DNA of 64,000 nucleotides from assembly GCA_011033025.1 (NCBI GenBank), contig WFMF01000427.1, positions 8,954-72,953 on the forward strand. The letters run 5' to 3'. Source of the DNA: Beroe forskalii (Eukaryota; Ctenophora; Nuda; Beroida; Beroidae). A program made the position numbers and the translations under genes. The notes below the pieces were generated by a model. That model did not search any database, was not told where the DNA came from, and saw only the letters and a program-made list of their open reading frames with translations. Every line of letters begins with the position of its first letter. The stretch's first letter is position 1. Below, in pieces: positions 6,830 to 50,711 of this stretch.

Positions 6830-7906
6830 TTTTGCTTTTGCTTTTGTTCAACATCTTCTTCAACATGTATAGTGAAGAAAACGAGCTAGTTGATAACTTT
6901 ATTACGAGACTCAGAACGCAGGCAGCCAGATGCGATTTTCGAACGGTTTGTGTTGAAGCCACGGCTAATGCTGCTGCCACGTATCATGATCTCACGGACA
7001 TGTTTCTACGAGATCGACTAGTTGTTGGTTGGACTGATGTTGAAGTGCGGAGAAGACTAATGCGAGAGAGTGACCTGACACTGGAGAAAGCTGTTGCCAT
7101 GATCAAGGCCACCGAGACAGCAAACAAGCAAATCAGTTAACGCAGTTGAAGTAGACGCTGTTCAGAGGAGATCCCAACATCATAATAAGCCTTATCAGAG
7201 GAAGGACTTCAGGAATAAATCTCACAAACCACCAGCAAATAAACGAGAACCGCAAGTTTGTGACCAGAAGAAGAGTCAGCAGGGGAATTGCGGCTACTGA
7301 GGCAGGAAGCACGTGAAGGGTGAGTGTCCAGCGTATGGGCAGGTGAGCGGAAAGTGTCAACGGAAGAACCACTTCGCGAGGGTGTGCAGGTCCAAGAAAC
7401 GAGTTGACGCGATGCAAGAAGGAGGCGAGGCCAGCCACTACGAGGATGACTACGACTTCGATACTTTCTGCTTAGGAGAGGTAAATGTCATAACTTGTCA
7501 TGCTGACAAAATTGACTCTTACTCATGTGATTCTGTCAGCATGAAAGATTGGCTTGAAACTGTTACTATTGATAATAAGCCAATTTTGACTAAAATTGAC
7601 ACTGGTGCCCAAGCAAATATCATGTCTAAAAATGTTTTCAATCAGAACTTTCCTAACAAAGTAGTCAATAAGCAAAATAAAGTGAAATTGTATGCTTATG
7701 GTGGCTCCCGTTTACCTAACACCGGTAAAGTTGAATTTGCTTGCCTGTTTGAAGGCAAAATAATCAATGCTGAATTCATAATTGTTCCTATTGAAGTTAA
7801 AACTGTTCTTGGATTAGATTCGTGTATGAAACTTGGATTAGTTAGACCACCTTCTCATGATTTATGTAGCAATTATTACCCTCCCGTGGCTCAAACTCTA
7901 GTGTGA
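6830..7906 (+). pseudogene. LTR-retrotransposon gag / zinc-knuckle / protease relic
   Basis: The first open stretch (to 7140) resembles the end of a Ty3/Gypsy-type gag, with a helical basic segment containing FITRLRTQAARC and LRDRLVVGW. After a stop comes a Cys-rich zinc-knuckle region (about 7285-7395) whose first knuckle is broken by an in-frame TGA. The frame from 7313 to 7906 continues into an aspartic-protease-like segment with DTGAQANIM near 7599, the expected active-site motif. No reverse transcriptase, RNase H or integrase follows and no paired LTRs are evident. This is a broken, truncated copy. The family assignment rests on motif order only. Confidence 0.7.
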
Positions 7907-8164
7907 TAATTTTCGATATATCACTCCTTTATAGAACTACTGTACAGTGGCGGGATGATAGAGCAGAATATCGTTGAATAAATTGTTGATTTTATGAAGG
8001 AGCACTCAAAATCTATAAAAACGTTGAATTCAGACGAGGGTCGTCAGACCCGAGTGGGAGGAAGTGCTGTTTTTTCGGGTAATAATACAATTAACAAACT
8101 CATGGATCGTGTGATATCGAAAATTGTCAAACTTGGCTGACGCCTCGTGTGATAATTTTCGATA
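7901..8164 (+). repeat. 264-bp segment bounded by a direct repeat
   Basis: GTGTGATAATTTTCGATA occurs at about 7900 and again at about 8152. An inverted near-copy, TATCGAAAATTGTCAAA, lies near 8114. The second copy continues on the far side of the MITE at 9783. Confidence 0.6.
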
Positions 8165-9944: not shown

Positions 9945-10017
9945 ACAGCATTAAACAGAAATGATTGCGCGCGCTGTCTGACAGACAGCGCGCGCGTTCA
10001 TTTCTGTTTAATGCTGT
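9945..10017. repeat. 73-bp near-perfect palindrome
   Basis: Two 36-bp arms meet with no real spacer. The outer part is ACAGCATTAAACAGAAATGA and the centre is GCGCGCGCTGTCTG facing its complement. Only about two positions mismatch. Confidence 0.9.
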
Positions 10018-12385: not shown

Positions 12386-15300
12386 CAAGAGCAAATTATA
12401 ATGATCAAAACATGCACGGTCCAGCATTGCAATAAATATTATATACATAACACTTCACACGTGAAATATAATTCCCAAAAGAAAAAGAATAAATAAATAA
12501 TAATCCTATAAACCTTGTGTCCGTACTAATGTATCCAACATATTTAGAAAAAAAAATAGTCATAGAATGATATGAAAATATGTCTCGCAATGAATCAAAA
12601 ATCATTGTAAACCATGATATCAGAGTCTTTATTGTCAATCATGTTTATGTCTGTGTCGCTAATTTTCCATGCACGTTTTATGAAAGCCCGGCGGATCCCC
12701 CTAGAGCCTCTCAAAGATTCTAGCACAGTCCGAAGCAGCGTGAAGCGTAATCTTTTCCTTATGAAGCTCATAACAGTGTGATATTCCTCGTTTCTCTTTT
12801 CTGCTATGAGTCGAGCCAAATGCTTATGAAATATGGTTGCCTCTTTGCCCCAACCTCCTGTGGTTGAAAATACAAGTGGGGTGAGGGTACCATGTTCCAC
12901 ATTCAGTACTCGATCATTGTACTCGTTTTTCTTCTGCACCTCATGGTGGCTGTAAATGGTATTAGGATCCCTTTCCTTATAAGTTTGACAATTGGGATCA
13001 AACACCCTTACATCCACGAACATTTTTTCTTGAGGGCGCCAAAAACCTATGGCAGAAACGTCAAGTCGAGCTTCATCAGCTTGATTTCCTCTGACGACTT
13101 CTCCCGATAACGGAAGGAGACATGGTTCTTTTGTGACTGAGATGCATACCTCATCAAGAAGCTCTGCCTCTATGTCTCTGATTTCGTTATGGCGCCTGAT
13201 GACAAATCCTCCTTTTTGGCATATCAAAGCATGGTTTACAGTGTTCCGTTCTCCACAAGCACAGATTACAGCCATTTGCTCTATCCTCCAGTTATACCGC
13301 AAACACAGAGCATCGTGAAATGCCCTTTTGTTGAGGTAAAATCCACACGAGGCTATAGGAAGAGAACTAAGCCAGCATGAAGCTCCTTTCTCACTGTTGA
13401 GTTGCGTTGCTCGCTTGAGATGATCTGGGAATAGGTTCAATAGCTCGGCTTGTTTGGCTTGCAATGCAGCTATTTTCGCCTCCTTCCTGGATTTCACTCT
13501 TGTTTCGATAGCACTCATCAGCTCTTCATTTAGCATCATGCCTTGGTTCAGTATTTCCTCTACGAGCGGTGCCGTTATGAACACTGAGTCACTAAATGCA
13601 CTGTCTGCTGTGTCAACCGGGTTTGGTATTCCCAGTCCACCCAGCCTACACGGTAGGGAGAACAGGTTTCTCTCGAGCTCTGAGCAAGTGTGCCCTGTGA
13701 GCGCAGGAATCAGCTTCTCTCTGATAGCATTTTCAAGAGACTGATACAGATGAGATGTCTCTGGAATAGTCCTTTGAAAGTAGCCCCACTTGTGTACCAA
13801 GCCAAATGTGAATGCAGCATATGCAGCTTGAGGTTCTGACTTTGCATATTCTGCAAGCGTTTCTACTTCCTTGACCCATCCATCAACCAGCTCACTGACA
13901 AATGAGTCTCTGAATGACTGGCTTCCAATCACAGCGCCCAGGTGCCTTTGCCCCTCGTTTGTGATTATCACTCCTGTTTCTCCAAACTGAAGCTTAGCTT
14001 CTTCCAGAAACTGTTCTTTGACAATGAGAACTGTTTTTCTGGCGTTGGGAAAGTAGCCATATCCTGGTCCGAAATTCTCCAATTCATTCCAGACTTTCTT
14101 GAGGGCTGACAACTTACCACCTGCAGCCGAGTCATCTGCAAACCATGCTTGATGGGTTTTACAATTTTCAATATCTCTGAGGTGTTGAATGATTGGTATC
14201 GTGCTAAGAGCATACCAACCACTGGCTGAGGGGTCGCCTTGTGTGGTACCCTCACTAGCCTTCAATACCACTACATCCTCCTTACTCCTTATAAACAAAT
14301 CAACTGGCCGGCTGTACGTATTCCTCAGGAATTGGGACATCGGAGGACACACGAAATCAATATTATGGAGCGCTACTTCTCGGTTCATGCAGTTGAACGC
14401 ATTTGTAGCGTCAATAAGAAGCACTGCCTCTGTTTCTGGATCCTCATACACTTGTCTCATGGCGTGTATAGCAGCCTCACTGCCAGAACGCTGACCAGAG
14501 CAAGCTTGGAGGGGACCAGCCCCTTTGAGCACATCCAGCTTCAAATGACGCATCACTGCTTTACCAATGACACGACGTAGTACTTCTCCAATTCCTATCG
14601 GACGTATACCATTTCCTGAATCCTTACTCAGAGGAATCAGACGGCAAGCTGTGAATGTTGATAAAGCTAAGGGATCCACAGTTTCTGAGCAGATACGTCT
14701 TGCCAGTCTAGCAACCTCATAACAAAGATTCTTTGAGTGTGCTTTGAAAGATTTGGAACAGAGCATCCTTCTTAGTCCATCTGCGTTCAAACCTGACGGT
14801 CCTCCCGAGCCAGACAGACCCAGAGCTGAGCTGTAGATCGTTTCTTCGTCCAACTCTTCGAATCTAATGAAATTGCTAGGTTCCAATGGTCCCTGTAACA
14901 TAAAATCACTTTCCTTTGGCTTTCCTGGTGGGTGTTTTTCTGCCAACTGATTTAAAGTTTCCTCGTTGATATCAACTGGTGCTCCATTACTGACTCTAGA
15001 TGTGAGCCATTTCACTGCAGATCTTACGTTACCTTGAAGCATCAAGCGAACGAAAACCTTCCGACATCGATCTTCATCATTTTTCCGTTTTGATCTCATG
15101 CGGGATTGAATTTGATCACACTCTTTAACAAGATCCCTAAGTTTACCTTGTCTCCACAAGTCTAGTCTACGTCTCAGATGAACTCTGTGCTCTGCAGACT
15201 TGGAGTTCTGGCTGGGTTTTTGTAGAATGAGCGGGATCATAATTAGAAATGAAGTGATGGAAAAACTCTCGCAAGCCGACTTCTCAGTGAAGTGTCTGAG

Positions 15301-16003
15301 TGTTGTGACTAGCTCATCTATAAAGTGTTTTCCTTCTTTCCCAGATGGCAGCATAAACAAATTAGGTACCCATCCTGCCACTCTTTTATAGACTTCATCA
15401 ACAGTTCTGCGTATGTTCTCAGCTCCCTTCAGATCTCCCCAAACCACCGAGTTCTTCAGCTCCTCGGGGATATCTGGAGGCGTATCAGGAGATGTGTCAA
15501 CTTCACTGAGTCTACATGTGTTGCAGCTCCATGGGTCCTGTTTCTTTGATAGCTCCTTATACCTCTTTGGCTTGATTCCTACGCATTCCGCATGATACCA
15601 TGAGTTGCATCTATTTTCACAGAATAATCCTCTCTGTGAAGTAGTGACAACTTTCAAACAATGGCCACAAACGTCTTGCTCTGGAACCACTTTCTCCTTG
15701 GTGACTTCAATTTGCTGGCAGCTTTTACAACACCAGTTAGTATCCGAAGTTTTGAGTTTATTAAATTCTCTCTTTGTCATTTTGATACACTTTATGTGCC
15801 ACTGAGCTTGACAGGCATAACATTCAATGAACTCCCTCCCGTTGTCAAGCAAAGCACATTCACACATTGTGCAAACTGGAATCCGTTCTGAAAGATCTTC
15901 TGCATCTTGTGGGATTTCCTGTGTGATTTCGAGTTGACTTCTGCTTATTTCAACGTGTTGAGCAATTTCGTTGAATTGTTTAGCCATGATAGCACGCTAC
16001 ACA
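12386..16003 (-). mobile_element. Candidate retroelement insertion bounded by a 13-bp direct repeat
   Basis: CCAGATTTGCAAT occurs exactly at 12373-12385 and 16004-16016, just outside the reverse-transcriptase ORF (16 bp before its ATG and about 210 bp after its stop). This fits a target-site duplication of a non-LTR retrotransposon with almost no 5' leader. It sits just upstream of the GLDC exon on the same strand, so probably in a GLDC intron. A similar but imperfect phrase at 12421 could blur the left boundary. Confidence 0.6.
12595..15987 (-). CDS. Retroelement polyprotein: two PHD fingers, reverse transcriptase, zinc knuckle, putative restriction-like endonuclease
   Basis: Uninterrupted 1130-codon ORF. 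Residues 39-90 and 107-158 are two C4HC3 PHD-type fingers. RT blocks follow in order: RPIGIGEVLRRVIGKA (462-477), LIDATNAFNCMNR (524-536, catalytic Asp 526), GTTQGDPSAS (580-589), AWFADDSAAGG (614-624, the YxDD box with Phe-Ala), GYGYFPNARK (642-651) and RHLGAVIG (681-688). A CxC-x7-H-x3-C motif lies at 909-923. Near the C terminus RLDVSAIGFW (974-983), FVDVRVFDP (990-998) and QKKNEY (1018-1023) look like a PD-(D/E)xK nuclease, as in R2-like non-LTR elements. Product: target-primed reverse transcription machinery, nuclear. The ATG at 15987 is the first in-frame start. I do not assign a named clade. Intactness suggests recent activity. Confidence 0.85.
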   Translation of the reverse strand: MAKQFNEIAQHVEISRSQLEITQEIPQDAEDLSERIPVCTMCECALLDNGREFIECYACQAQWHIKCIKMTKREFNKLKTSDTNWCCKSCQQIEVTKEKVVPEQDVCGHCLKVVTTSQRGLFCENRCNSWYHAECVGIKPKRYKELSKKQDPWSCNTCRLSEVDTSPDTPPDIPEELKNSVVWGDLKGAENIRRTVDEVYKRVAGWVPNLFMLPSGKEGKHFIDELVTTLRHFTEKSACESFSITSFLIMIPLILQKPSQNSKSAEHRVHLRRRLDLWRQGKLRDLVKECDQIQSRMRSKRKNDEDRCRKVFVRLMLQGNVRSAVKWLTSRVSNGAPVDINEETLNQLAEKHPPGKPKESDFMLQGPLEPSNFIRFEELDEETIYSSALGLSGSGGPSGLNADGLRRMLCSKSFKAHSKNLCYEVARLARRICSETVDPLALSTFTACRLIPLSKDSGNGIRPIGIGEVLRRVIGKAVMRHLKLDVLKGAGPLQACSGQRSGSEAAIHAMRQVYEDPETEAVLLIDATNAFNCMNREVALHNIDFVCPPMSQFLRNTYSRPVDLFIRSKEDVVVLKASEGTTQGDPSASGWYALSTIPIIQHLRDIENCKTHQAWFADDSAAGGKLSALKKVWNELENFGPGYGYFPNARKTVLIVKEQFLEEAKLQFGETGVIITNEGQRHLGAVIGSQSFRDSFVSELVDGWVKEVETLAEYAKSEPQAAYAAFTFGLVHKWGYFQRTIPETSHLYQSLENAIREKLIPALTGHTCSELERNLFSLPCRLGGLGIPNPVDTADSAFSDSVFITAPLVEEILNQGMMLNEELMSAIETRVKSRKEAKIAALQAKQAELLNLFPDHLKRATQLNSEKGASCWLSSLPIASCGFYLNKRAFHDALCLRYNWRIEQMAVICACGERNTVNHALICQKGGFVIRRHNEIRDIEAELLDEVCISVTKEPCLLPLSGEVVRGNQADEARLDVSAIGFWRPQEKMFVDVRVFDPNCQTYKERDPNTIYSHHEVQKKNEYNDRVLNVEHGTLTPLVFSTTGGWGKEATIFHKHLARLIAEKRNEEYHTVMSFIRKRLRFTLLRTVLESLRGSRGIRRAFIKRAWKISDTDINMIDNKDSDIMVYNDF

Positions 16004-17951: not shown

Positions 17952-18993
17952 TTTGACGTTAAGACCCACAACTAGTCAATTAAATACCATGGTACGTATC
18001 ATGGTACGTACTGAACATCCTTACTAGTCGGTACACATACCGATTGTGGCACTGCCTCTGCGCTCCACATTTATTCCCCAAATTTCTTGTGATAAAGAGG
18101 TGAAAGCTTCATGCAACAAACAAGGTCAATGATCAAGGAATTGAAGCACATCACTGGATATTTTACAACATCAAGTCAGACTTCAAAGCAGGCCAGAGTC
18201 AAACTCCGATCTTTTCAGGAGTCAAGGCAACAGGAGTCAAGGCAACCAGCAAAAGGCAACCCGAGTCGACCTCGAGGCAACCAGTGTCAAGGCAACCAGT
18301 GTCAAAGCAAACAACGGACCGCACAGCAGCATCAGGGAAACGATGTCTACAGATTAGATGGGTGTTGACCCCTGTTCAGTCCTAGTCACGTGACCCATAT
18401 GCCTAGCATGCAAAGGTGGACAGATTGAGACTGTCTGGAAGGGCTGATTGGGTGTCTGGTTCGCTCTATGCATGCCAGGCCTATAAATCACGTGACCAGG
18501 ACTAAACAGGGGTCAACAGTCAACACCCATCCAATCTGTGACATCATTTCCTGATGCTGCTATGCGATCCATTGTTTGCTTTGACACTGGTTGCCTCGAA
18601 GTCGACTCGGGTTGCCTTACACTGGTTGCCTTGACTCCTGTTGCCTTGACTCCTGTTGCCTTGACTCTGTTTGCCTTGACTCTGGAAGATCGGAGTCTGA
18701 ATCTGGTGGCTTTGAAGTCCGACTCCCGATGTTGCAAAATATCCAGTGATTTGCTTCAATTGCCTTGATCACTGACCTTTGTTTGTTGCATGAAGCTTCA
18801 CCTCCCCATCGCAAGAAATTTGGGACTAGTTAGGATATGTTCCGGGGCATGTACCGCGGAACGTGTTCTAACTAATCGGTACATACCACGGTACGTACCG
18901 CGGTATGTACCGACTAGTTAGGACATGTTCCGCGGTACGTTCCGCGATACGTATCGCGGTAGGTACCGACTAGTTGGGGTCTTAGTATCAAAC
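17952..18993. mobile_element. ~1.04-kb foldback element
   Basis: Inverted ends TTTGA-NNN-TAAGACCC and AACTAGTC; the arms continue inward almost to the centre. Shared inverted blocks include GATAAAGAGGTGAAGCTTCATG-like and GGAGTCAAGGCAACC tandem units (18211-18310 against 18580-18690), CACGTGA and GGGGTCAACA. The outer parts carry GGTACGTACC/CCGCGG palindromes. No transposase and no clear target duplication. Confidence 0.8.
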
Positions 18994-23927: not shown

Positions 23928-24973
23928 GATATCAGTAAAAGAGTCACAAGAGTTGTAAATTTTGTCCAATTGATCCATTGGATCCATCATGTCCAATGGA
24001 CGTCCATACGATATCCAATGGACATCCATTGACCATGATGTCTATCGGTAAAAATGTCCAATGCTCTTCAATAGATCCAATGGATCCATCTGAGTAGATC
24101 CAATGGACACAATCACTAAACATGGTTTGGTAGATGGACAGTGGACACCAATGTGGTATTTTTGTTCAATGGATCCATTGGATCCATTGTGTTCATTGAA
24201 CACCATTGGACGTGTCCATTGGATCCATTGCACATTTTTTCCATTGGATCTAATGGATCCAGTTTGTCCATTGGACACAATGGATCTATTGGACACTTGC
24301 ACAATAGATCCATTGGACACAATGGTTGCAATGGACTCAATGTGCAATGTATCTAATGGTGTTCATCAGAAACAATGGATCCAATAGACACAATGGATCC
24401 ATTGAACAAAAACACCAGACTGATGTCCATCTACCAAAACATGGTGATTGTGTCCATTGGAGCCACTAAGATGGATCCAATGAACATCCATTGGATCCAT
24501 TAAGTAAACAAAGTTTAAGTAAACAAAGTTTTTATTGATCTCCACAATTTACAATCAAACAACACACAAAAGAAGGATGAAGATATGATGCTACCAAATT
24601 TCACCAATTATATATTAGTATCTGAAGTAGATAATTTATTTCGGATACACTAATTATTATTGTTATTAAGATTCTCGTTTCGAATTCTTTAGAAAGGTAC
24701 AGACAATCAAATAATTTAAGAATGGTTCATGATAGTATGATTTGTAGCCTATAATAATTATAAGTCATATCATTTTAATAAGTATTATTTAATTTATATC
24801 TGAACACTGCATTGGACAATTTTTAAATTTTACTGATGGACATCATGTTAACAGATGTCCATTGGATGTCAAATTGACTGTATGTCCATTGGACATGTCC
24901 ATTAAACATGATGGATCCAAAGGATCCATTGGACAAAATTCACAAGTCTTGTGACCCTTTTAACGATATATCA
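23928..24973. mobile_element. Foldback element rich in ATGGATCCAATGG repeats
   Basis: Outer arms match inverted: AAAAGAGTCACAAGAGTTGT and AATTTTGTCCAA on the left, with counterparts at 24925-24973. Inward are many TCCATTGGATCC / GGATCCAATGGA units (each nearly self-complementary), then an A+T-rich loop at about 24515-24840. Confidence 0.75.
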
Positions 24974-33600: not shown

Positions 33601-36600
33601 CAGGTAAACCCATGTTCTAAGTCTAATACTCTAGAATCAGGTAAACCTGTGTTCTAAGTCTAATACTCTAGATCAGGTTAAACCTGTGTTCTAAGTCTAA
33701 TACTCTAGAATCTTGAAGCCCTGTTAAAGTCTATGCTCTCAGGTTAAACCTGTGTTCTAAGTCTAATACTCTAGAATCAGGTAAACCCATGTTCTAAGTC
33801 TAATACTCTAGAATCAGGTTAAACCTGTGTTCTAAGTCTAATACTCTAGAATCAGGTAAACCTATACAGAGGAACTACATGGAGAAGTTCATGACGAAAG
33901 CTCAGCGGAAGCGAGAGATAAACCGGGACCCTGATCAGGACAAGTACGTGTCGAGCACCTACAACAGACATGCCATTCTGCAGGACGTGCACCCCTTTAC
34001 CGAGGACATACTGCAAGGTAGGGGGTGTGTGGGGGGTTTATATACTGCAGGCTAGGGGGTGTGTATGTGGTGTTTCATATACTGCAAGGTAGGGGGTGTA
34101 TGGGGGTTTATATACTGCAAGGTAGGGTGTGTATGGGGGTTTATATACTGCAAGGTAAGGGGTGTGTATGGGGGTTTATATACTGCAAGGTAGGGGGTGT
34201 ATGGGGGTTTATATACTGCAGGGTAGGGGGTGTGTATGGGGTGTTTCATATGGGTGTGTTGCTGTGTTAGGGTTTTTTTTGTAAGGAATTAAATCCCCTA
34301 AGGAATTGCTCCTTTCTCCTAACTTCTATATTCTAGTACAAGACTTCTATATTTATAATCTGAAAGTAAGAAGGATAAGCTCTCTCAGTTTTATTCTCAC
34401 AATTCTATATCAACAAGTCAACACTTATTAGTAGCATATCATTTCTGTTTCTGCTCTAGGTAAGTTCTCGATCCATCACCCTGGGAACAGGAGCCGGATA
34501 GTTTTCGACAGACAAACACAATACAAGAGAGATCTCATCTCCTGCTACCCTCAACAACCTTCCATCTGGGGCCCTAAGCTTCCAGCTAAGCGGGCTATAC
34601 CCGTCAAGGGACACATGCCCTGGAAAAACTTCCCTCAACTTATCATTGTAAGTGCGAAGACAGTCCTGCTAGGGACTCATCAACAATTGCAATTGATTGC
34701 ACGGGGAAATCGCTCAGTTGGCAGAGCAGATATCCCGTCAAACAGACGGTTATGGGTTCAAGGCCCTTTTTATCCAAGAATTTATCCCAAATTGACTTGT
34801 GCCTCAGACCACCTGCCATGTAACACCCTCAGACCACGTACCAAAGACAAGTGCTAGCTGACGTGTCTGACGGAGAGTCCTGCACCACTCCCGGACCCCC
34901 TGCCAGTGAGAGTTTCCTGGAGCGGGACGAACTAACGCACACCCTCCTCCTGAACGCGCTCTCTCAGTGGCGGACCACCTGGTATCTGGAGAACAAGTGG
35001 CGGGACAGCACACTCGAGAGCATCACGCTGGTAACTGTCTGTCTGTCTTTTTGTCTGGTTGTCAGCTGTCTGTTTTGGTTTGTCCACTTCGTTTGTCTGT
35101 CGGTAGTTGTGAGTCTGAATTGTTACTGTTTGTGTATGTGTTTTTGTGGTCATCCCATTTACCCGTAGATGAGACTTTCCGATCTATCAGAGAATCAGTA
35201 CTTCATTCCATGTCGAGAATGATAACTAATTTTCTATCATGCAATATGAAAATATCTTAAATTTGCAATGATATAAATACATTTGCAAATTGAAATTATT
35301 TTCATATTGCATGTCAGAAAATTTACGTTGGTTACCACCATATATAATTCTACTCAGGATATGAAAGACATCAGTGAGCATGTACGTATCACAGCCGCTA
35401 TTGCCTGTGGAGCAGCCCTCGGATATAGAGATGACTGGGATCTCACTGAAATAAGTGGTGACTTACTTAATTCTATAGTTGTTAAATTTTAATTTCTTTG
35501 AAATCATATTAATAAACTATTTGAGATTAATTGTATCCAAGTCTGATTAATAAGTAATCTTTGCAGTTTATTCTAACGCAGTAGCCACAACGTAACTAGG
35601 TGTTCTGTACCTTAAAAACCCAGACTAATAGAGCGATAGAGCGATAGGCTCAAACCTCATTATACCCTTAAACCTAAATTAAGTAACTAGTAGGCGACAC
35701 AACTCCGACAGAAGCGGAGTCTCTACAAATGGAGGAGGAGGATGAGGCTGAAGACACTGAGGTCCCTATCAGTGGATATAACAGGACCTACAGTCCTTCA
35801 GAACCAGCTATTTCTTCAAACAGGTTTCTATTTGGGACATGAGGTTTTCTGGTCCCTGAACACTAATTTTACAGGTTTTCTAAACTTCCCCCATTTCCAA
35901 GCATTATTCGATATTCACGTCGATTACTTTCAACTTTGAAATAATATAGATTTTGTGACTTCTTCACTTCGCATTACAGTAATCCTCATTCCTTATCTCG
36001 CAACTAACTGAAAATCTTAGCTGATAAGCTGCTGGCTGGCTGAGTGGGTCAAAAGATTGCTATAATATGCTTTATCACTACAAATTTAACTTTTTCGTCC
36101 GGGTGACCTTTCTTCCTTTGACAACACTCATCCAAGCACTTAGACTCTTGAAGCCCACGTCTTTGCTTGCAACATTTGATTGCACATGCAATAGCTGCTG
36201 CTTGTTCTCAGCTAAATGGTGTTTCACCTTCACACTCTTTATATTTAAATGTCTAGTATCTACCTCACAAGCACACACAGCTACCATTTCACCGGTTGAC
36301 CAATACCACACGCGTAGACCAGCAGCCACTTCTACATCCATTTTCTATTGATTAATGTACGAAACTGATTACTGTCATAGACTATTTCTAGACATACCTT
36401 TTAAACCAGTGTACCACCATCATAATCATATAGGCCTCCTTTGGATCTAATCAATTAATATACGCTTAGAGCATGGCTGGGAATTGGCTAATAGAAATTA
36501 TTGCACGAGGCGTAGCCGAGTGCAATAATTTGTATTGTCGCACGAGGAGCAGGCCGAGTGCGACAATACCAAATTATTGCACGAGGCGAAGCCGAGTGCA

Positions 36601-39113
36601 ATAATTTTATTAGCGTCATGACCATTTGCCATGCTCTTAGTGTATTAGCCAATGTGAGGAGTGCAATATTACTTATTATTTAACTCACAACACGTTCGCC
36701 GAGATTGAAATCCAGTTTACGGAGCAACCGCGTACTTTTTTCGGATCGTTAAATAATAATGTTACTACACACGGATATCGGTGTGGATTTCCCATATTCC
36801 ACTCGGCTTCGCCTCGAGGAATATTCACCAATCCACACCTCTATAGTGTGTAGTAACATGATATTATTTACCGCGTGGCCGGATATAGCGGTTAAGTAAG
36901 ATGTGTTATTTTTGAGTTTTTTTTCATACTTTTGATATTATTTTCATACTTTTGATATTATTTTCACACTTTCGGTATTATTTTCATAGTTTTTGGTATT
37001 ATTTTCATAGTTTTTGGTATTATTTTCATAGTTTTTGGTATTATTTTCATAGTTTTGCTATTATTTTCATAGTATTTGATATTATTTTCATAGTTTTTCT
37101 ATTATTTTCACAGTATTCAATATTATATTCACACTTCTTGTCAAGAGTTCCTAAAGGAACTCCGAGACGGAGCCTCACATCAAAGCTTTGATAAACAAGT
37201 CGTATTGCTCACCACGTAATAAAGCCTACCGTGTAAAAACAAAAGTTATATTTATATGCTGAGAGTGAAGAAAATGTTTTCTTGCGTTTGAAAAACTTGG
37301 TAAATAATATCGTTACATAACTCCCAACAGCGAAGTAACAAATTGTTTTCAACTCGGGCTGCGCCCTCGATGAAAACAAATCATTATTCAACTCAGCCTT
37401 CGGCTTCGGTGAATAATGCAATTTATGCCACTCGCTTCGCTCGAGGCATAAATCATGTTACTTCACTGTTGCTCGTTATGTAACTACATATTATTGCACG
37501 CCTACAAGTAACCTCAAAATTGGCTAATAGTTATTAGTTGTTTATCCGATATTATTACCCTGCAGTGTAATTACTATTCGAATTTTTGAGCAATATTAAT
37601 CATGTAATATCACCGTACCCAGCAGTTGAATTACTGTTCGATGTAAGTGTGTAATTACTATGCCTCAACTGTTGAATTACTATTCAAGTGTGTAATTACT
37701 ATTCCCAACTGTTGAATTACTACTGTTGAATTACTACAAATTTTCTGAAACGGCCATTCGCACGATCCTAACCTATTTGCTATCTCTGTGCGGATGTAAA
37801 TAGAAGAATGATAAGCTCCCATGATATCTGTTATCGCACTTTTCATATAAAAACGGTTCCACGTAATTTATTCTTAAGCGTATATAAACTGTAAAACAAG
37901 ATAAAATAGCGATAAGGAGCACAATATGTTCGGTACATGTACATTCGGTAGCACAAGATAAAGTAAATAGGAGCACAATATATAAAATACGATGTATCTA
38001 AACGATATTTTGGGGCAACACAAGATTAAAGATAAAAATATAGATAAAAGGAACATTATCGTATATACCTAAATGGCGCCACCCAGACGCGCTTGATAAC
38101 TCCATCCGTGTTTCAATGTTTATTTATCTAGTGTTAGAGATATAACGCAGACTTTTGGCGCCATATATAGGGTGTATTGCTCCGTTTTATCAATTTCAAT
38201 TACATTATTTCTGTGCGCCGTCATTTCTATCTGTCAGTGTTCGTTACTTATTTTAGATCGGGATGAAGATAATGATTATGGCGCAAAACTTATTGTTCAA
38301 TTGAAATTACATACATACATTTTGATACATTCTAAAGATTTAGCTGACTACATTCTCATGTGATCGTGTTTTTCTTTAAGGGCATATTCTATACGAGATC
38401 CGCATAAGATTCTAGCTCTCAAGTCAGTTGTTAGTTATGTTTGTGATGTGAATTGTTTTGTTTTCGATTGAGTACTTAACTTTCATGATTCATGTTTTTT
38501 ATGGCAATGAAAGATCATAACAAAATTTTTGTTAAGTACATATACATACACTACTCATACTAACAGTATGTATCAATGCTGGGGGCTGGTTGTATCATTT
38601 GGACTTTTGAACTTATTCGCTGAATTGACCCCGATACGATGATGATGTCATTCTGACATATACAAATCACTGGCAAATTTGTCCGAAATTCTTGCCTGTT
38701 TCAATTATGAAATAGTGTACCCATAAAACATTGAGTTCGAATACTTTCAAACCTTCTACTTTCATGATTGATGCGTATATCGCAGGGTAATAATACAGTA
38801 AATACACACTTGGGTGTGTAAATTACCATCGTAATTGCACTCGCAAGCTCGTGCAATTACTCCAATAAATGCACTCGCAAGCTCGTGCATTTATTGCATG
38901 AATTCCACTCGCAAGCTCGTGGAATTAATTTGGTAATTACACACCCAAATGTGTATTTACCGTATATAAGTTATCGAGCTGATGACCCCAAGTTCCAGGT
39001 CAGTAAGTCATGTGGTGGTGGACAGCCTGCAGAAACTCCTGTTTGATAAGAGTGAGCGAGTTCAGGTGGCAGCCTCTGTTACTCTCATGTCTATCGGAGC
39101 TTCCGGAGAGAGG
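27506..39113 (+). CDS. Twelve-exon gene, HEAT-repeat protein (HEATR4-like?), 3' end not found
   Basis: Joining twelve segments between GT-AG sites gives 547 codons with no stop, and every intron phase matches: 27506-27642, 27909-28045, 28534-28601, 28777-28932, 29143-29228, 31798-31980, 33872-34017, 34460-34647, 34833-35030, 35358-35454, 35694-35823, 38999-39113. The N-terminal half is polar, Lys/Arg-rich and probably flexible. WGPKLPAKRAIPVKG and TTWYLENKWRDSTLESITL precede helical HEAT-like segments (EHVRITAAIACGAALG; HVVVDSLQKLLFDKSERVQVAASVTLM). I suspect the HEATR4 family from layout and motifs but cannot confirm it. Two choices are less certain: the weak donor ending exon 2 and the donor of exon 6, which lies in a duplicated splice site. 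The last donor (AGG|GTTAGT) implies further exons that I could not find. Confidence 0.75.
27909..28045 (+). CDS. HEAT-repeat gene, exon 2
   Basis: Acceptor TATTCCAG. Encodes PTSTNVITFAAASKKTPQLL and DYIKGLNIGLNFTHEVV. The donor AAA|GTGCCC is weak but is the one whose phase fits exon 3; the frame closes just downstream at 28060. Confidence 0.6.
28534..28601 (+). CDS. HEAT-repeat gene, exon 3
   Basis: Acceptor ATCAAACAG, donor ATT|GTGAGT. Encodes HSDKADLRRLRAFPVKPYLK. Ends in phase 0. Confidence 0.65.
28777..28932 (+). CDS. HEAT-repeat gene, exon 4
   Basis: 52 codons, phase 0 to phase 0, acceptor TTAACAG, donor AAAAG|GTACTG. Encodes TTQWDEYILNKLSHDTKDF and HSYGSQRERLQQK. Confidence 0.7.
29143..29228 (+). 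CDS. HEAT-repeat gene, exon 5
   Basis: Acceptor CTGCCCTAG, donor GAGAG|GTATTT. Encodes VMSDAKEEIDSVGFKETQFM. Ends in phase 2. Confidence 0.7.
29249..29314. repeat. Hairpin with 18-bp perfect arms
   Basis: GTTATTGGTCTTGTAACA and its exact reverse complement, with an inner GTGTC / GACAC pair in the loop. It lies about 20 bp after exon 5. Confidence 0.85.
29729..31655. mobile_element. 1.93-kb piggyBac-type non-autonomous element (TTAA duplications)
   Basis: Perfect 15-bp termini AGGGGGAGTGAACTC, flanked on each side by TTAA (29725-29728, 31656-31659). A second inverted pair lies inside: GTGACGTCACTATGCGTCA near 29879 and its complement near 31498. The TTAA target is characteristic of piggyBac transposition. 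No transposase remains. It sits in intron 5. Confidence 0.8.
30525..30885. mobile_element. 361-bp hAT-type MITE nested in the TTAA element
   Basis: Perfect 14-bp termini CATAGCTGCCGAAC, flanked by the 8-bp direct repeat CAGTAGAC (30517-30524, 30886-30893), as expected for the hAT superfamily. The interior is tandem CCCTCTTTTTGG-like sequence and AATATACCTAAAAAAAGGTC repeats. Confidence 0.85.
31798..31980 (+). CDS. HEAT-repeat gene, exon 6 (duplicated 5' splice site)
   Basis: Acceptor GGTTTCAG. Encodes QTCSKTSLISYGLTESDKET and ASEVDEEYVPKYL. The donor CTTAG|GTAAGTGG occurs twice, at 31943 and 31980, because of a 37-bp tandem duplication. Only the second donor puts exon 7 in frame; it adds 12 codons (GKWWNCCSFTLL). 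Confidence 0.65.
31938..32011 (+). repeat. 37-bp tandem duplication across a 5' splice site
   Basis: Two identical 37-bp units starting ACTTAGGTAAGTGGTGGAAC, at 31938 and 31975. They span the end of exon 6 and the start of intron 6. Confidence 0.95.
32100..33860 (+). repeat. ~37-bp minisatellite in intron 6
   Basis: Close to 48 units of TTCTAAGTCTAATACTCTAG followed by AATCAGGTAAACCCATG, with two main variants (AATCAGGTAAACCCATG and ATCAGGTTAAACCTGTG) and a higher-order pattern. It ends about 10 bp before the exon 7 acceptor. Confidence 0.95.
33872..34017 (+). CDS. HEAT-repeat gene, exon 7
   Basis: Acceptor TATACAGAG, donor CTGCAAG|GTAGGG. Encodes NYMEKFMTKAQRKREINRDP and YNRHAILQDVHPFTEDILQ. 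Ends in phase 1. Confidence 0.75.
34005..34250 (+). repeat. Minisatellite repeating the exon 7 splice donor
   Basis: Seven units of TATACTGCAAGGTAGGGGGT plus GTATGGGGGTTTA. The first unit is the real exon 7 end and donor. Confidence 0.9.
34460..34647 (+). CDS. HEAT-repeat gene, exon 8
   Basis: Acceptor TTTCTGCTCTAG, donor ATCATT|GTAAGTG. Encodes WGPKLPAKRAIPVKGHMPW. The exon itself begins GTAAGT, so its start looks like a combined 3'/5' splice site. Confidence 0.75.
34702..34766 (+). ncRNA. tRNA-like sequence (tRNA-derived SINE head or tRNA pseudogene)
   Basis: TCGCTCAGTTGGCAGAGC resembles a pol III A box with a D arm (GCTC/GAGC). GGGTTCAAGGCCC resembles a B box and T arm. Between them CCGTC-AAACA-GACGG forms a stem. 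The acceptor stem does not pair convincingly, so it is not a functional tRNA. It lies in intron 8. Confidence 0.5.
34833..35030 (+). CDS. HEAT-repeat gene, exon 9
   Basis: 66 codons, phase 0 to phase 0, acceptor ACACCCTCAG, donor CTG|GTAACT. Encodes ERDELTHTLLLNALSQWRTT and LENKWRDSTLESITL, amphipathic helices. Confidence 0.75.
35358..35454 (+). CDS. HEAT-repeat gene, exon 10
   Basis: Acceptor TCTACTCAG, donor ATAA|GTGGTG. Encodes DMKDISEHVRITAAIACGAA, a HEAT/ARM-like helix pair. Confidence 0.7.
35694..35823 (+). CDS. HEAT-repeat gene, exon 11
   Basis: Acceptor ACTAGTAG, donor AACAG|GTTTCT. Encodes an acidic linker, EEEDEAEDTEVPISGYNRTY. Both phases fit the neighbours. Confidence 0.65.
36078..36341 (-). 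CDS. Unassigned 87-codon open frame in intron 11
   Basis: Opens MDVEVAAGLRVWYWSTGEMV and ends RKVTRTKKLNL. It has a start and a stop but no recognised similarity, and lies antisense in an intron. It may be chance. Confidence 0.2.
   Translation of the reverse strand: MDVEVAAGLRVWYWSTGEMVAVCACEVDTRHLNIKSVKVKHHLAENKQQLLHVQSNVASKDVGFKSLSAWMSVVKGRKVTRTKKLNL
36465..36641 (+). repeat. Three-hairpin cloverleaf locus A
   Basis: Outer stem pieces AGAGCATGGC and GCTAATA pair with their counterparts at 36611-36640. Inside are three consecutive hairpins: stems AAATTATTGCAC (36495-36531), GTATTGTCGCAC (about 36532-36569) and AAATTATTGCAC again (36571-36607). Tips read GAGGCGTAGCCGA, GAGGAGCAGGCCGA and GAGGCGAAGCCGA. 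Confidence 0.9.
36674..36870 (-). repeat. Nested hairpin locus B
   Basis: Nested stems GTTACTACACAC (36761/36846), GGTGTGGATT (36780/36830) and ATATTCC (36794/36818), with a tip that reads TCGAGGCGAAGCCGAGT on the minus strand. A further TTATTATTTAAC / GTTAAATAATAA pair lies to the left. Confidence 0.85.
36915..37135 (+). repeat. ~21-bp tandem repeat, TATTATTTTCATAGTTTTTG
   Basis: About eleven units of TTATTTTCATAGTTTTTGGTA with variation, strongly strand-biased (T-rich on +). Confidence 0.85.
37312..37484 (-). repeat. Three-hairpin cloverleaf locus C
   Basis: Outer stem of about 28 bp (GTTACATAAC ... GAAGTAAC with GTTACTTC ... GTTATGTAAC). Three inner hairpins have unrelated stems: TTGTTTTCA (37343/37371), ATTATTCA (37383/37410) and TTTATGCC (37422/37445). 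On the minus strand the tips end in GNA triloops: GGGC-GCA-GCCC, AGCC-GAA-GGCT and GC-GAA-GC. Confidence 0.9.
37560..37740 (+). repeat. Short degenerate repeats, CTGTTGAATTACTA / GTGTAATTACTA
   Basis: Several irregular copies of TGTGTAATTACTATT and CTGTTGAATTACT. No coding content. Confidence 0.6.
38798..38960 (-). repeat. Three-hairpin cloverleaf locus D
   Basis: Outer stem of about 30 bp (GTAAATACACA, TGGGTGTGTAA and TTACCA facing their complements at 38931-38960). Three inner hairpins: stems GTAATTGCAC (38831/38851), ATAAATGCAC (38865/38885) and AATTCCAC (38901/38919), all with the identical tip TCGCAAGCTC. Confidence 0.9.
38999..39113 (+). CDS. HEAT-repeat gene, exon 12
   Basis: Acceptor AAGTTCCAG, donor GAGAGG|GTTAGT. 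Encodes HVVVDSLQKLLFDKSERVQV and AASVTLMSIGASGER, a typical HEAT-repeat helix pair. Its acceptor lies 38 bp after a three-hairpin locus. Confidence 0.75.
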
Positions 39114-50650: not shown

Positions 50651-50711
50651 GTCTATGTCATAGTCAATTGCTATGAGATCCAAAATCATAGCAATTGACT
50701 ATGACATAGAC
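50651..50711. repeat. Perfect inverted duplication, 26-bp arms, 9-bp loop
   Basis: GTCTATGTCATAGTCAATTG plus CTATGA faces its exact complement. The right arm is part of the open frame at 50673-51026. Confidence 0.95.

Follow-up and report, generated by a model that had tools for sequence, protein, structure and literature searches.

The three hairpin loci A, C and D in the window (here, the whole 64,000-nucleotide stretch of Beroe forskalii DNA that was analysed) are probably the 3' ends of non-autonomous rolling-circle (single-stranded DNA) transposons that belong to several families and have the architecture of HINEs, which are the non-autonomous partners of Helentrons. The original prediction had treated the cloverleaf, an outer stem enclosing three hairpins, as a free-standing unit; it proved instead to form the 3' end of a larger element, whose 5' end is also defined.

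Element copies in the window and their common plan

Loci A, C and D were contained in four stacked element copies, A1 (minus strand), B, C and D. These copies and their parts, together with a partial copy of a further family, S1, were located as follows.

7872..8164, plus strand: partial copy of S1, a one-hairpin family with the same plan, hairpin at 8115-8164 (alignment, inverted repeat)
36461..36673, minus strand: 3' part of an A1 copy, comprising the cloverleaf and the inner half of the 5' hairpin (alignment, fold, ends)
36637..36659, minus strand: stretch in which the A1 5' terminus recurs inverted, 11 bp exact, directly before the cloverleaf
36674..36861, plus strand: B element, 188 bp, TATTATTTAAC...AACATGA, with a single nested hairpin (matches, arrays, fold)
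36862..37488, plus strand: C element, 627 bp, TATTATTTACC...ACTACA, directly adjoining B (matches to the 3' 201 bp, ends)
36909..37136, plus strand: central tandem repeats of C, unit 20-21 bp, about 11 copies
37310..37488, plus strand: C cloverleaf, with an outer stem and hairpins at 37343-37379, 37382-37418 and 37421-37453 (fold)
37489..37529, minus strand: 5' part of the window A1 copy, severed by the B+C insertion (flanks match intact A1)
37550..38964, plus strand: D element, 1415 bp, TATTATTACCCTGC...TTTACCGTA (long matches, shared body, ends)
37645..37722, plus strand: 19-bp tandem repeats in D, close to its 5' end
38796..38964, plus strand: D cloverleaf, with an outer stem and hairpins at 38831-38860, 38863-38896 and 38898-38929, all with the tip CACTCGCAAGCTCGTG (fold)

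The window A1 copy ended with CGTA at 36461, and its three-hairpin model comprised 36571-36607, 36532-36569 and 36495-36531. In alignments of 222-229 bp it was 94-99% identical to many A1 copies and 81-89% identical to A2 or decayed copies. The insertion of B and C into this copy was precise: both flanks rejoined as the intact A1 loop, GCAATATTACT^TATTATTGCACG, with zero bases gained or lost. The body of D was common to loci L021 and L086, and no open frame of at least 180 aa was found in the window D element (37550..38964). The window S1 copy (7872..8164) was 88-95% identical to copies at three other loci (L040, L043 and L068). B+C in the window (36674/37489) and D in L086 (near 139/1412) lay in the same A1 5' hairpin loop with an identical right-hand junction. 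It is possible that this loop is an insertion hot spot.

The inverted repeats that the original prediction had placed in loci A, C and D were present there, and all three loci folded as single-stranded DNA far more stably than shuffled sequence (z of -11.46, -10.83 and -11.55, respectively; 0 of 200 shuffles equal in each case). Element B (36674-36861), which had been overlooked, formed one nested hairpin (z of -8.34). The claim of exactly three hairpins applied to the minimum-energy folds of C and D, which consisted of an outer stem and three separate hairpins. It did not apply to the optimum for A, in which hairpin 1 paired with hairpin 3 because both stems are the same sequence, so that the three-hairpin layout of A is apparent only in the sequence. 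Nor was three a constant number across families: B and S1 have one hairpin, and a further family, E, has two.

What the six families tested have in common is a 5' terminus beginning TAT, followed toward the 3' end by an exact inverted copy of that terminus, one to three hairpins and a precise 3' end. The first 11 to 14 bases of the 5' terminus recurred in exact inverted form directly before the cloverleaf or hairpin in all six families tested (11 bp in A1, A3, B, C and S1; 14 bp in D); A2 and E were left out because their 5' ends are undefined. The distance from the inverted copy to the 3' end was 103 bp in B, 179 bp in C, 169 bp in D and 182 bp in A1. Elements started with TATT... or TATA... 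and ended with ...CGTA, ACTACA or ACATGA.

The hairpin tips were also alike. By eye, the tips of the family representatives were CTCG-like on both the 5' and 3' sides, with CACTCG...CTCGTG in A and D, and the most degenerate was that of the second hairpin of C (CTCA...TTCG). A CTCG/CTCG tip places a T.C/C.T double mismatch within an otherwise paired stem. The mismatched pattern ACTCGN{2,12}CTCGTG occurred 3715 times in the genome compared to 1222 times for the control, with at least 17 of the 3715 matches belonging to one unrelated 47-bp tandem array. The fully paired equivalent, ACGAGN{2,12}CTCGTG, was not enriched (457 occurrences versus 880 for the control). Enrichment of the mismatched tip but not of the paired one indicates that the mismatch is a conserved feature rather than wear, and we infer that it is a site of protein contact. 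The 47-bp array, at G000:C1:1700718-1701532, has a unit that fits the degenerate tip pattern and accounted for 17 of the 100 places listed.

Other structured sequences were observed in the window. Long hairpins with stems of 42, 35 and 26 at 18851-18938, 9945-10017 and 50651-50711, respectively, lacked the CTCG tip, and palindromic repeats of the CAATGGATCCATTG type were clustered at 23985-24500.

Copies, joins and insertion sites in the genome

Searches of the 216-Mb genome, with the reversed pattern as the control, revealed many matches beyond the window in families whose plan is constant while their stems change, as the original prediction had anticipated. The tip CACGAGGCGAAGCCGAGTG occurred 403 times, the D tip CACTCGCAAGCTCGTG 608 times and the exact 20 bases of the A1 3' end 327 times, compared to 0 occurrences of each control. 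With 40 of 300 candidates scored, the 3' 201 bases of C had at least 40 matches (itself among them), of which 36 were 97-100% identical and 4 were 89-90% identical. There were at least 39 other long matches to D, at 88-96% identity (40 of 403 candidates scored), and at least 67 full-type matches to B including itself, among 124 rows of matches (40 of 293 candidates scored); the copy counts for B, C and D are thus lower bounds. Among the first 40 CACGAGGCGAAGCCGAGTG loci, which were taken in contig order rather than at random, the A-type copies split into the subfamilies A1, A2 and A3. Further families were S1, with one hairpin, and E, with two (L009, L011, L017 and L026). Family E had tips around GGCCTTCGGCC and an outer stem of AACTCGTAAAAAGTGC...TTTTTACTCGTTA. 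The view that the loci are not simple diverged duplicates applied between A, C and D, which are different families, and not within a family, in which the stems are alignable diverged duplicates; the latter finding is half of what the original prediction had named as its refutation.

The A1 5' terminus was present at the expected distance from 18 of 31 distinct A1 3' ends. Two short A1 derivatives of 68 and 107 bp (L091 and L092) kept both ends with no cloverleaf between them, which raises the question of whether the cloverleaf is needed or was deleted afterwards.

Rfam gave no match within the window at gathering thresholds. The four tip strings were not found in print in the one open-access library searched, and no described family with such ends was among the matches listed from that library. 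In IMG/VR the A tip was present on one contig (L152, of which the end was examined) and the D double tip was present nowhere.

Copies were also joined head to tail. B formed head-to-tail arrays in 14 of the 41 match groups, with two to five units that were 178-191 bp apart, had 0-6 bases between matches and were not 3'-truncated. On seven contigs, that of the window among them, a same-strand C copy came after B no more than 1.5 kb from where it was expected. Seven junctions linked the 3' end of an A-type copy to the 5' end of an A1 copy, and although 0-12 bases were allowed between anchors, each read CGTA followed directly by TATTAGCC; at least one of them, on contig C156, linked an A2 copy to an A1 copy. 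At another locus (L077), an A1 copy was followed directly by the start of B. Head-to-tail copies are expected from rolling-circle run-through of a terminator. Such joins could alternatively stem from unequal exchange, or from one copy inserting at another's end.

A1 insertions followed the rule TAWNNNN^TAWT. In 25 of 45 distinct A1 5' flanks, TAW preceded TATTAGCC by exactly 7 bases (1-4 of 45 at each neighbouring position counted), and the 3' flank began with TAWT in 49 of 56 distinct cases and with TA in 55 of 56; these counts take in nested copies. The 3' flank of D was TA in all 11 copies with both ends read. Among the 10 D copies with enough 5' flank (that of L174 was too short), TAW was 7 bases before the element in six and 6 bases before it in four; the locus L161/L162 was dropped when its 5' end was not found. 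The junction rule TAWNNNN^TA is thus shown to be common to A1 and D, the sequences of which are unrelated. The 3' ends TAAGCGTA, TTACCGTA, TAACTACA and TAACATGA are similar to the target's left half.

Short direct repeats flanked a subset of copies. Repeats of at least 5 bp were present in 17 of 32 A1 flank pairs versus 5.7 expected by permutation, and repeats of at least 6 bp in 7 of 32 versus 1.4 expected, with six of these seven beginning exactly at the 3' junction. Among the 32 pairs, L006 is represented by two readings, and L125/L127 and L139/L141 are likely duplicates; 8 of 20 extra pairs were left out in which there was no recognisable 5' end at the expected place. The signal for D was weaker (repeats of at least 5 bp in 6 of 11 pairs versus 2.8). 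No duplication beyond the element's own TATT was detected at the B+C empty site or around three nested A1 copies (L059, L061 and L077).

The mobility suggested by the original prediction is borne out by the many copies, the one precise insertion with a known empty site and the head-to-tail arrays. Copying as folded single strands, which had also been proposed, is a putative route.

Evidence for selection on the fold

The stems covaried between A subfamilies, in agreement with the proposal that folding is under selection. The alignment comprised 16 hand-chosen cloverleafs (five A1, four A2 and seven A3 rows), consisting of 15 of the 25 listed copies plus the window copy. Paired cells made up 88.5% of this alignment, compared to 78.7% after shuffling and no more than 42.6% with the partner slid. 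The covariation score was.237 versus.088 when shuffled (0 of 500 shuffles as high) and at most.090 when slid, and several stem pairs occurred in three Watson-Crick types. There was a mild excess of pairs changed on both sides (18 versus 15.0 shuffled; reached by 12 of 500 shuffles). Counter to covariation, further pair types were fewer than in shuffled alignments (27 versus 32.6). The second outer stem was 67.2% paired, with failures mainly in A3. Independent covariation events are few because three subfamilies were compared.

Pairing was also scored between the arms of individual hairpins. In 18 of 23 candidate hairpins, a simple pairing score was 8.9 for a hairpin's own arms, 4.5 for arms across families and 1.8 for shuffled arms, a comparison that is weak on its own because relatives partly share stems. 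The five hairpins dropped, with scores below 6, included hairpin 2 of C and both E hairpins, and most had been miscut by the tip pattern.

When eight family representatives were folded with RNA energies, G.U being allowed, only 2 of 486 pairs were G.T, compared to 1271 of 10127 (12.6%) in 240 controls; the controls were resampled from four window segments and are expected to fold more weakly than the real sequences, so that the comparison is a rough one. Selection at the RNA level would tolerate G.T pairs, and their near absence therefore argues for folding as DNA. Thus, selection on these folds seems to have acted on DNA and not on RNA.

The original prediction had offered correction of one hairpin arm from the other as an alternative source of the pairing. 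Among 18 distinct A1 cloverleafs, with identical ones counted once, there were 20 one-sided stem changes, four of them to G.T, and no matched double changes. Since the changes within A1 were only one-sided, no templating was seen in resident copies, though templating would also avoid G.T pairs. Pairing maintained by such in-place correction in static hairpin repeats would account for stems that differ between loci yet pair, and for the rarity of G.T. It is hardly credible as an explanation of these loci, given the one-sided changes, the precise insertion and the multicopy spread.

Candidate partners, alternative explanations and known systems

The genome contains Helitron-type open reading frames (20 Helitron_like_N and 13 Pif1_2B profile matches), the best Helentron candidates being very long Rep-containing frames of 2871 aa on contig C1099 (from 13833 onward) and 2814 aa on contig C432 (from 166932 downward). 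Contigs C847 and C297 carry further Rep-containing frames. The cloverleaf was absent from the 1.4 kb downstream of each of two Helitron-type frames (on C802 and C256), for which the true element ends are not fixed, and the sole CTCG-CTCG-like string 3' of these two frames was an unpaired chance match in L151. With no cloverleaf after the two frames read, membership of the Helentron group is only putative. Nor was an autonomous partner found among the open frames read: inspection by eye of 77 open frames (110 aa or longer) from the loci retrieved revealed no enzyme beside a cloverleaf. Those 77 frames did include a Helitron end (L151) and a piece resembling a non-LTR retrotransposon (L006). Among five proteins compared with Pfam (three from the window and two from other loci), the only mobile-element match was to the reverse transcriptase of the window frame at 12598-15996.

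Several of these sequences have features of their own. About 0.85 kb after its Helitron-type frame, L151 (C256) has a plain hairpin, CTAGAAGGCCCG-A-CGGGCCTTCTAG, which ends in CTAG like a canonical Helitron 3' end. The window frame at 12598-15996 (minus strand) is 1133 aa long and has a PHD finger (E value of 5e-7); its reverse transcriptase match scored 27.7 bits, just below the curated cut-off of 29.6, and it is probably a non-LTR retrotransposon. L149 (C1134) is a 13.3-kb contig with a divergent COX1 fragment, reminiscent of ctenophores, that reads TGA as tryptophan.

A mechanism can be proposed for elements of this plan. A transposase acting in trans would bind the CTCG/CTCG tips. The inverted copy (...AATA) would pair with the element's own TATT... 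start or with the target TATT, and such pairing would bring the 5' nick site beside the 3' structure. On the displaced strand, the multi-hairpin fold would halt replication and set the 3' cut after TAANNNNA^, a sequence similar to the left half of the target TAWNNNN^TAWT. If termination failed, the enzyme would continue into the next round and generate head-to-tail copies.

A tentative alternative is that the elements represent a separate and so far unnamed group of eukaryotic single-strand transposons, with an HUH or other nuclease and not related to Helentrons. It would have the cloverleaf and mismatched tips for recognition or termination, would follow a target rule of its own (TAWNNNN^TAWT) and would make target duplications that are short and variable. 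This is suggested by the target sequence, which is neither TT nor AT, by the lack of such a fold within 1.4 kb downstream of two Helitron-type frames, and by the 5-8 bp repeats that flank some of the copies, which can be set beside the target site duplications (TSDs) of 2-8 bp that Replitrons make according to the available part of PMC10741241. However, the 5' inverted copy, 3' palindrome, internal tandem repeats and tandem copies all fit HINEs, no enzyme was seen, and the Replitrons described in that part of the review (PMC10741241) have terminal direct repeats and come from green algae and seedless land plants.

Two further explanations invoke other routes of copying. SINE-like elements, for which a retrotransposon would recognise the 3' fold and copy the RNA, would have variable flanking repeats, 5'-side filler and a strict 3' junction, as were found here. 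That origin is nevertheless improbable in view of the scarcity of G.T pairs (2 of 486 versus 12.6% in controls), the same 5' terminus in 18 of 31 A1 copies, the head-to-tail arrays of B, the lack of a simple-repeat tail in the flanks listed, and the lack of an Rfam match in the window at gathering thresholds. The outer stem, which closes at the 3' end of the element, resembles a pair of terminal inverted repeats (TIRs), and its arms could be read as the two TIRs of cut-and-paste MITEs. This seems very unlikely: the 5' arm of the outer stem is internal, with the conserved 5' end lying beyond it by a distance that ranges from tens of bases in A1 to about 1.2 kb in D, and neither A1 nor D has a constant TSD.

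To our knowledge, it is an open question how rolling-circle transposons locate their 3' terminus and stop there, and we know of few examples of comparative evidence for a selected single-stranded DNA structure. The elements described here provide such evidence in a eukaryotic transposon: in several families of one genome, an elaborate fold has stems that change in concert while an internal mismatch is fixed. They also name parts for testing (the tip mismatch, the 5'-terminal pairing and the target rule), and their many near-identical copies are raw material for assays and dating.

Some resemblance to known systems is general. Members of the IS200/IS605 family are bacterial and have simple terminal hairpins; they share with the elements here hairpins that form on single strands and contain unpaired features, together with short guide pairing close to the ends, and differ in host, in the simplicity of their hairpins and in their enzyme, of which no homologue was shown here. 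The repetitive hairpin elements of sponge mitochondria, set beside ours by the description in the accessible part of PMC2800124, likewise form hairpins but are mitochondrial.

As far as the excerpted text of a plant-centred review goes (PMC10741241), Replitrons, listed there for green algae and seedless land plants, have TSDs of 2-8 bp and short terminal direct repeats of 5-11 bp. Compared by that description (PMC10741241), they resemble the elements here in their variable short flanking repeats and in the lack of TIRs at the two ends, and differ in having an enzyme, which was not found here.

Canonical Helitrons start with TC, end with CTRR and insert between A and T, as summarised in the portions consulted of PMC4067079/PMC7492417, in which inner copies of Helitron tandems are also described as often 3'-truncated (PMC4067079/PMC7492417). 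Judged by those portions, they are similar to our elements in the 3'-side hairpin, the precise ends and the known occurrence of tandem copies; unlike them, the elements here have no 5' TC, 3' CTRR or A^T insertion, and their tandem units are not 3'-truncated.

The closest likeness is to HINEs. In the passages available from PMC4067079 and PMC7492417, a HINE has an inverted repeat of 11-15 bp near its 5' end that recurs before a 3' palindrome, optional central tandem repeats and no coding capacity, and sits inside other repeats (PMC4067079, PMC7492417). Insertion is described there as being into TT or T-rich sequence, with the target unmodified, and the subTIR of mite HINEs as lying 38-60 bp from the 3' end (PMC4067079/PMC7492417). 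On those descriptions, the elements here differ from HINEs in having an outer stem that encloses one to three hairpins where HINEs have a single short palindrome, a conserved T.C/C.T tip, an inverted copy 103-182 bp from the 3' end rather than the 38-60 bp of mites, and the target TAWNNNN^TAWT rather than TT, with flanking repeats in a subset of copies; a partner with Rep, helicase and endonuclease that shares their ends was not found among the frames read here. Within the same descriptions, they agree with HINE/DINE-1 elements, including Cg_HINE of the Pacific oyster, in the 5' inverted repeat that recurs before the 3' palindrome (11-14 bp here), in the tandem repeats inside C and D, in being non-coding and in being nested in other repeats. 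Compared with HINEs, the 3' structure is most likely an enlarged, multi-hairpin version of the same end.
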